Below, in pieces: positions 4,132-5,656 of a DNA stretch of 64,000 nucleotides. The notes under the pieces were generated by a model. It saw only the letters and a program-made list of their open reading frames with translations, did not search any database and had not been told where the DNA came from. Numbering within the stretch: the stretch's first letter is position 1; each line of letters opens with the position of its first letter. The translations under genes and the position numbers were made by a program. Source of the stretch: Afipia sp. (lineage in GTDB: Bacteria; Pseudomonadota; Alphaproteobacteria; Rhizobiales; Xanthobacteraceae); contig JANQAK010000003.1 in assembly GCA_024707075.1 (NCBI GenBank), positions 1,674,001 to 1,738,000 on the forward strand. Reading direction: 5' to 3'.

Positions 4132-4737
4132 CTAGCCTGCGCCGCCATCGTCCTTCGATGTGAATCCCTTTGCATCCATCGCAAGATGCACCTTGTTTGC
4201 AAACGATGCGTCCTGTCCGGTGACAATCAACGCTGCGTTGTCGGCAACCGCCTGGCACAGCGCGCTCACCCAAGGCATTTCGCTTTTGGCGAAATCGGAC
4301 AAGACGTGCTGATGCACCAGATCCTTGACGCCGGGATGCCCGACGCCGAGCCGGACGCGACGATAGTCGTTGCCGACGTGCGCGGAGATCGAACGCAACC
4401 CGTTGTGTCCCGCGATACCGCCGCCGATCTTGACGCGCAGCTTCGCGGGCGGCAGTTCGATCTCGTCGTGGAACACCGTGATATCGCCGACGCTCATCTT
4501 GAAGAACTTCGTGGCTTCGCCGACAGCGTTGCCCGACTCGTTCATATAGGTCGTGGGCTTCAGCAGAATGACGCGGCCGTTGCCGAGATGACCTTCGGAG
4601 GTCTCGCCCTGAAAACGACGGCGCCACGGACCAAATCCGTGACGCCGTGCGATCTCGTCGACGACCATGAACCCGATATTGTGCCGGTTGCCCTGATACT
4701 TCGCGCCGGGGTTTCCCAGTCCGACGAACAGGCGCAT
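4132..4737 (-). CDS. pth: Peptidyl-tRNA hydrolase
   Basis: A 201-residue Pth that cleaves the ester bond of peptidyl-tRNAs released from stalled ribosomes. Family signatures are [23 protein letters not shown] (Asn11 and His20 region), [31 protein letters not shown] and GHNGLRSI. The length and N-terminus match the family. It sits between rplY upstream and ychF downstream, the usual order in this bacterial group. The intergenic space to rplY is filled by two strong hairpins that may modulate readthrough. Confidence 0.96.
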
Positions 4738-4741
4738 GGCA

Positions 4742-4816
4742 CGAGTGTCCCGAATCCGAAGTTCGTATTACGTCGCAGCACCTTCCGAACGAACTTCGGA
4801 TTCGAAAGGACACTCG
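4742..4816. repeat. Long hairpin 1 of a mirror-image pair between pth and rplY
   Basis: Outer arms CGAGTGTCC / GGACACTCG (9 bp) and inner arms 4751-4766 / 4789-4804 (16 bp) pair perfectly, with a 3-nt bulge (AAA, 4805-4807) between them. The loop of about 22 nt begins ATTACGTCGC. It shares this architecture, in mirror image, with the next hairpin. Confidence 0.85.
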
Positions 4817-4830
4817 AAGACTGGAGATAT

Positions 4831-4907
4831 TGGTGGAGTTTCGGATTTGACATTCGCATTACGACGCTCACGCGAGCAGCATCGCGAATGTCAAATCCAC
4901 TCCACCA
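4831..4907. repeat. Long hairpin 2 of a mirror-image pair between pth and rplY
   Basis: Outer arms TGGTGGAGT / ACTCCACCA (9 bp) and inner arms 4843-4857 / 4884-4898 (15 bp, GGATTTGACATTCGC and complement) pair perfectly, with a 3-nt bulge (TTC, 4840-4842). The loop begins ATTACGACGC, like hairpin 1. It ends 5 nt from the rplY stop codon. Confidence 0.85.
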
Positions 4908-4912
4908 AGTTC

Positions 4913-5656
4913 TTACTTCTTCTTGTCGGCCGCGGGCTTCGCCGCAGCAGCGGCAGGAGCCTTGCCACCGGCCGCAGGCGCTTTCGCACCGGCCGCAGCA
5001 GCAGGAGCCGCAGCACCGGCCGCAGCAGCAGCACCAGCCGCAGGAGCCGCACCACCGGCAGCCGCAGCAGCGGCCTTCAGTTCTTCGTTGTAGCCCGACG
5101 GCGGAACGATGGTGACCAGCGTCGCATCGTCACGCGTCAACAGCTTGACGTTCGGCGGCAGCTTGATGTCGGTGATGTGCAACGAGCTTGCGATGTCGAG
5201 CTTGCCGACATCGGCTTCAAGATACTGCGGGATGTTGTCCGCGGGCACTTCGAGTTCGATCGTATGGGTCACGATGTTGACCGTGCCGCCCCGCTTCACG
5301 CCCGGAGCTGTTTCCGCGTTCAGCACATGCAGCGGAACGCTGACGCGGATCTTGGAGCCTTCACCGAGGCGAAGGAAATCCACATGCAGCGGGAAGTCGC
5401 GCACCGGATCGAGACTGAAGTCGCGCGGAATCACGCGGTGCTTCTTGCCGTCGAGTTCGATGTCGTGAACGGTGGTGAGAAAACGCCCGGCCTGAATGCG
5501 CAGACGCAGTTCAGCATCGTCGAGCGAGATGGTCAGCGGGGGCTGGTTGTTGCCATAGATCACTGCCGGGATACGGCCAGCGCGACGTTCAGCCCGGGCG
5601 GCCCCCTTGCCGGCCTTCGGACGAGCGGTCGCCTTCAATTCCTTGACGGTCGCCAT
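4913..5656 (-). CDS. rplY: 50S ribosomal protein L25/general stress protein Ctc
   Basis: A 247-residue long-form bL25 (TL5/CTC type) that binds 5S rRNA. The N-terminus MATVKELKATARPKAGKGAARAERR and RAGRIPAVIYGN mark the L25 domain (about 1-95). The C-terminal beta domain (TVNIVTHTIELEVPADNIPQ, about 120-190) follows. The last about 50 residues are an Ala/Pro/Lys low-complexity tail ending KKK, probably disordered. It heads the minus-strand series rplY-pth-ychF. Its promoter should lie in 5657-5900, shared with the divergent GTPase gene. Confidence 0.95.
   Translation of the reverse strand: MATVKELKATARPKAGKGAARAERRAGRIPAVIYGNNQPPLTISLDDAELRLRIQAGRFLTTVHDIELDGKKHRVIPRDFSLDPVRDFPLHVDFLRLGEGSKIRVSVPLHVLNAETAPGVKRGGTVNIVTHTIELEVPADNIPQYLEADVGKLDIASSLHITDIKLPPNVKLLTRDDATLVTIVPPSGYNEELKAAAAAAGGAAPAAGAAAAAGAAAPAAAAGAKAPAAGGKAPAAAAAKPAADKKK

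Follow-up and report, generated by a model that had tools for sequence, protein, structure and literature searches.

What occupies the spacer between rplY and pth, and why it folds so strongly, is the question raised by this locus. The spacer measures 175 nt (4738-4912 of the 64,000-nt stretch of Afipia DNA analysed here, hereafter the window). The original prediction described it as occupied by two long bulged hairpins in mirror orientation and offered two readings, a remnant resembling a miniature inverted-repeat element (MITE) or an RNA structure tuning rplY–pth expression. Folding, alignment and coordinates bear out the description, and the element leaves no more than 4 nt free at either end of the spacer (Table 1). 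Both loops begin with ATTACGNCGC, and alignment of hairpin 1 with the reverse complement of hairpin 2 confirmed that the mirror homology between the two hairpins is real. Folded as RNA, the doublet reaches -97 against -54 ± 4 kcal/mol (z -10.65), and folded as DNA it reaches -56.7 against -21.8 ± 2.8 (z -12.3); in each case 0 of 200 shuffles were as good. The two loops are inverted copies and look complementary, but a kissing interaction between them was rejected, as their own pairs were no better than swapped ones (p 0.16 overall).

Table 1. Twin-hairpin element and flanking genes, in window coordinates
Feature	Position	Strand	Description	Basis or remark
Whole twin-hairpin element	4742..4908	.	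hairpin 1, spacer, hairpin 2	covariance model, genome search
Hairpin 1	4742..4816	+	9-bp outer stem, 16-bp inner stem, 22-nt loop	fold
Hairpin 1 outer stem	4742-4750/4808-4816		9 bp	
Hairpin 1 bulge	4805-4807		AAA, on 3' arm	
Hairpin 1 inner stem	4751-4766/4789-4804		16 bp, 100% paired	
Spacer between hairpins	4817..4829		~13 nt; AT-rich in other copies, decayed here	alignment
Hairpin 2	4830..4908	+	mirror orientation; 10-bp outer stem, 15-bp inner stem, 26-nt loop	fold
Hairpin 2 outer stem	4830-4839/4899-4908		10 bp	
Hairpin 2 bulge	4840-4842		TTC, on 5' arm	
Hairpin 2 inner stem	4843-4857/4884-4898		15 bp, 100% paired	
Left outer foot	4742..4745		CGAG, pairs with inner foot CTCG (4813-4816)	CTAG in most copies
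Right outer foot	4905..4908		CCAA, pairs with inner foot TTGG (4830-4833)	CTAG in most copies
pth	4132..4737	-	peptidyl-tRNA hydrolase; start codon 4 nt from element	PF01195, E 5.5e-62
rplY	4913..5656	-	ribosomal protein L25 (TL5 type); gene end 4 nt before element	PF01386 and PF14693

The same structure recurs throughout the host genome. A plain DNA search yielded 47 matches, and 37 distinct copies align end to end at ~161-168 nt. A covariance model of the doublet, the kind of search suggested in the original prediction, recovered many copies in the host and its relatives, with at least 118 strand hits in the host genome, corresponding to at least 58 full copies; the window copy itself scores 144.6 bits with covariance model R1 (E 1.2e-33, + strand). 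What repeats is the doublet as a whole, from hairpin 1 through a short AT-rich spacer to hairpin 2, and not the single hairpin. The earlier view of two diverged copies placed head to head thus holds for the homology of the hairpins, but the mobile unit is the ~165-nt doublet, as the 37 aligned doublets indicate. Arms fall into three subtypes. Among the 37 copies, only that in the window combines hairpin 1 of type i/ii with hairpin 2 of type iii.

The family extends well beyond the host. At least 150 copies are present in a congener (Afipia, G124), and within the host family 88 of 150 genomes (33 of 47 genera) carry the element. Outside this family, it is present in 25 genomes from 14 other families among the 199 genomes of the order that were sampled. 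Unit length is steady, ~161-170 nt overall and 165-170 nt in the other families, where the anatomy is also retained: the four feet are CTAG or closely similar to it, the foot stem has 9-10 bp and the inner stem ~15 bp, and hairpin 1 has a bulge of 3-4 nt in its 3' arm, matched in nearly all cases by one in the 5' arm of hairpin 2. Spread on plasmids was rejected: the search returned a single partial match (77%), on a plasmid of Aminobacter, and nothing for the young type.

The twin-hairpin element is mobile. Using the joined flanks of host copies as queries, we found empty sites in relatives for 21 of the host-genome loci examined. At one of these (L011), the empty site reads ...GGTCCT-CTAG-ATGAG with flanks 98% identical, while the target at another (L014) is TTAG or TTAA. 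One genome (G056) carries six copies that are 97-100% identical, lie at six unrelated loci and have CTAG at both ends throughout. In several cases (L235, L240 and L249) a copy occupies precisely the CTAG foot of an older one, and these nested insertions duplicate CTAG; elsewhere, tandem copies have a common CTAG (L255), and one copy lies inside the loop of another hairpin (L107). Young copies have TG...CA ends with a terminal inverted repeat of 26/32; a mobilizing element would be expected to have ends matching TGTCCCGATTCCGAAG or TGTGGCGGTTCAGAAG. CTAG flanks both sides of young and nested copies, whereas the left and right feet of old copies agree no more often than by chance (13 cases against 11.5), so that old copies give no sign of an ordinary 4-bp target duplication. 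The many copies, empty sites, nested insertions and near-identical young copies support the reading as a MITE-like remnant.

Copies are intergenic, often abutting a stop codon. This placement is in part explained by strong avoidance of CTAG in the host genome: the window contains 12 CTAG against 216 expected from base composition and 41 from a Markov estimate. One of these 12, at 4132, takes in the pth stop codon. Separately, three nearly identical host copies with common flanks (L012, L013 and L017, at G000:C6:2081960, C1:192983 and C6:574856) multiplied within a larger duplicated segment and not by transposition, as their identical flanks indicate.

The stems covary strongly. Among the 37 host copies, 97.3% of stem cells are paired and double changes are seen at 36 of the 50 pairs, neither value being reached by any shuffle; across families, 99.1% of cells are paired, with double changes in 35 of 47 pairs. 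Such covariation, the strong RNA fold, the transcribed position between two operon genes and the occupation of the same site in seven species would all suit a cis-acting RNA tuning rplY–pth or its neighbours, be it an attenuator, a stability element or a processing site. The mismatches, however, are not those of RNA: G-T (25) and A-C (24) are equally rare, and counted in the sense of transcription there are 11 G-U against 16 A-C. The check for compensatory changes advanced in the original prediction is strongly positive, but G-U is no commoner than A-C. Copies occur in both orientations relative to transcription and in tandem (20), divergent (12) and convergent (2) gene contexts. The outer feet, which stand at the target, speak against RNA as well: those other than CTAG match their own inner partner 20 times against 2.5 expected, whereas left and right outer feet agree no more than chance allows. 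At the rplY–pth site, 7 Afipia species have the element, whereas in ~20 the spacer lacks it and measures 33 nt at most. The spacer revealed neither an intrinsic terminator nor a promoter signature, and the Rfam 15 covariance models gave no match for the element. The proposed tuning of rplY–pth by an RNA structure is not supported, and we regard this reading as highly improbable.

Covariation could instead reflect selection on a DNA hairpin, recognized as a single strand at transposition. The maintenance of pairing across families while the sequence changes and the constant position of the bulge agree with this. Evidence to the contrary comes from the orthologous rplY–pth copies, which are presumably immobile and yet show compensatory foot changes: their complementary feet read CGAG/CTCG, CTCG/CGAG, TTGG/CCAA and CTGG/CCAG, so both partners changed after insertion, and double changes affect 6 pairs in this small orthologous set. 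Copies that no longer move would be beyond the reach of selection on mobility, and we consider this explanation rather unlikely. Template switching creates and maintains perfect hairpins through apparent compensatory substitutions (PMC8794818), and we infer that, acting in DNA, it is the best explanation of the covariation, better than RNA function. After insertion, template switching while the DNA is replicated would copy each arm anew from its partner, which would render the stems near-perfect and covarying, down to the outer tetranucleotide situated in the target site. Stem covariation is accordingly not proof of RNA function: the compensatory changes here arose after insertion and without wobble preference, as expected from template switching. 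The rate of template switching could be measured from orthologous copies in different species.

Overall, we consider it very probable that the locus carries a non-autonomous mobile DNA element of ~165 nt, mobilized in trans by a separate enzyme, whose arms have been rewritten by template switching and whose rplY–pth copy is an old and nearly neutral insertion. The element inserts at CTAG-like tetranucleotides and has terminal inverted repeats, each end being folded into its own bulged hairpin.

Which enzyme might act in trans bears on two more specific possibilities. Searches with the Y1 and IS481 families and with the left end in G056 found neither an autonomous element nor a cognate transposase. 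One candidate is a MITE of a CTAG-targeting DDE insertion sequence, IS481-like or similar, which would be a more specific form of the explanation above. CTAG-targeting DDE elements of the IS481-like kind have TGT...ACA ends and duplicate their target. Their MITEs resemble the twin-hairpin element in TG...CA ends, a terminal inverted repeat, a CTAG target and the lack of coding capacity, and the young copies with their 26/32 repeat and CTAG on both sides, together with the duplication of CTAG by nested insertions, fit this origin. Unlike such MITEs, each end here is a separate bulged hairpin, and neither the IS481 loci nor the G056 left end led to a matching transposon. The IS481 transposase model had no match above cut-off in 8 Afipia genomes, with one weak broken match in G124, and none of the transposase loci fetched in this search has these hairpins at its ends; mobilization by IS481 was rejected for want of loci with matching ends. 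In G056, every match to the 39-nt left end with 3 or fewer mismatches belongs to a complete copy of 165 nt and none to a longer element, which speaks against an autonomous copy there. A DDE origin stands as a possible but tentative assignment.

The other candidate is mobilization of a REPIN/BIME-type element by a Y1 tyrosine transposase (RAYT, TnpA-REP) that reads inverted bulged palindromes as single-stranded hairpins. In IS608, guide sequences pair with cleavage sites, as do the guide sequences of IS200/IS605 elements. The pairing of outer and inner feet resembles these guide and cleavage-site pairs, but guide sequences alone cannot explain it, because feet have changed after insertion at a single site. 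The doublet of inverted bulged hairpins, intergenic, in high copy number and often clustered, is as in REPINs (PMC3116915), and bulged REPs are known to be read as single-stranded DNA (PMC8266576). Against this, no more than 3 of 29 Afipia genomes have PF01797 (Y1), whereas the other 26, the copy-rich G124 among them, lack it; an E. coli control was positive. The only Y1 region of the host (L052, G000:C5:178906-179265) is a broken IS200-like transposase without flanking hairpins or adjoining element copies. The element also carries no GTAG/CGTC tag, and its ~25-bp stems exceed those of GTAG (5-13 bp) and CGTC (8-9 bp) repeats (PMC3733652). The lack of Y1 in most of these genomes led us to reject RAYT/REP mobilization in Afipia, and we judge a REPIN-type origin to be very unlikely.

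Comparison with described systems places the element among palindromic mobile repeats. RIMEs of Rhizobium and Bru-RS of Brucella are shorter than the twin-hairpin element, at ~105-110 bp. As far as the citing papers describe them, both are likewise short, palindromic, intergenic and noncoding repeats of the same order (RIMEs, Osteras 1995, cited in PMC2573895; Bru-RS, Halling 1994, cited in PMC2677664). REPINs and BIMEs share the inverted pair of bulged palindromes with a short linker, the doublet as replicative unit, the intergenic location, the many copies and the tandem arrays (PMC3116915, PMC8266576). They differ from the present element in its ~25-bp stems, 165-nt unit, CTAG target and paired feet, and in its lack of both a GTAG tag and, in most host genomes, a Y1/RAYT gene. 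The GTAG/CGTC palindromic repeats of Bradyrhizobium and Rhodopseudomonas come from a related host family and form head-to-head dimers, and CGTC repeats also lack a transposase partner; however, their sequence is different, and CTAG feet and a fixed 165-nt unit are not described for them (PMC3733652). Br-REP1 and Br-REP2 of Bradyrhizobium are also intergenic palindromes in Nitrobacteraceae, but their published consensus sequences are different and shorter (PMC5082802). Br-REP2 is contained in a 'larger repetitive element', for which its authors did not show data (PMC5082802) and which may or may not be related to the twin-hairpin element.

No published counterpart was matched within the open-access literature. 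Set against the open-access descriptions, the element is a palindromic mobile repeat with features not matched in those described. A broader reading, which we hold to be doubtful, is that it represents a class of hairpin-ended mobile DNA found throughout the Hyphomicrobiales, with feet that pair with the target tetranucleotide as IS200/IS605 guide sequences do, moved by a non-Y1 enzyme new to palindromic repeats and with hairpins kept perfect by template switching. The element is in any case abundant and order-wide; if the broader reading is true, its hairpins would provide a natural record of template switching over hundreds of copies.

The history of the rplY–pth copy itself can be partly traced. 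The same two arm types occur in all 7 filled species, most likely reflecting one old insertion at this site. Several species of Afipia would have it in common, and other species would have lost or deleted it. One genome (L079, G165) has a 27-nt rplY–pth spacer in which only the last arm of hairpin 1 is left, a 3' remnant of a deletion. We attempted to count insertions and losses from an rplY–pth–ychF gene tree but claim no count: species with and without the element are intermingled on it, and recombination has probably disturbed the tree. Recombination at the rplY locus is also suggested by rplY identity, which swings from ~73% to 98% among Afipia species.

In the closest filled/empty pair, GAGAACC, found just upstream of the pth start, lies on the far side of the element, so that the element has parted pth from its old upstream sequence. 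An effect on pth is possible, and persistence at the same site in distant Afipia species could indicate some selective retention. The copy is probably largely neutral, with at most a mild effect on pth translation. On the other side of the element, the C-terminal tail of rplY (window 4913-5080) encodes a long low-complexity stretch rich in Ala, Pro and Lys.
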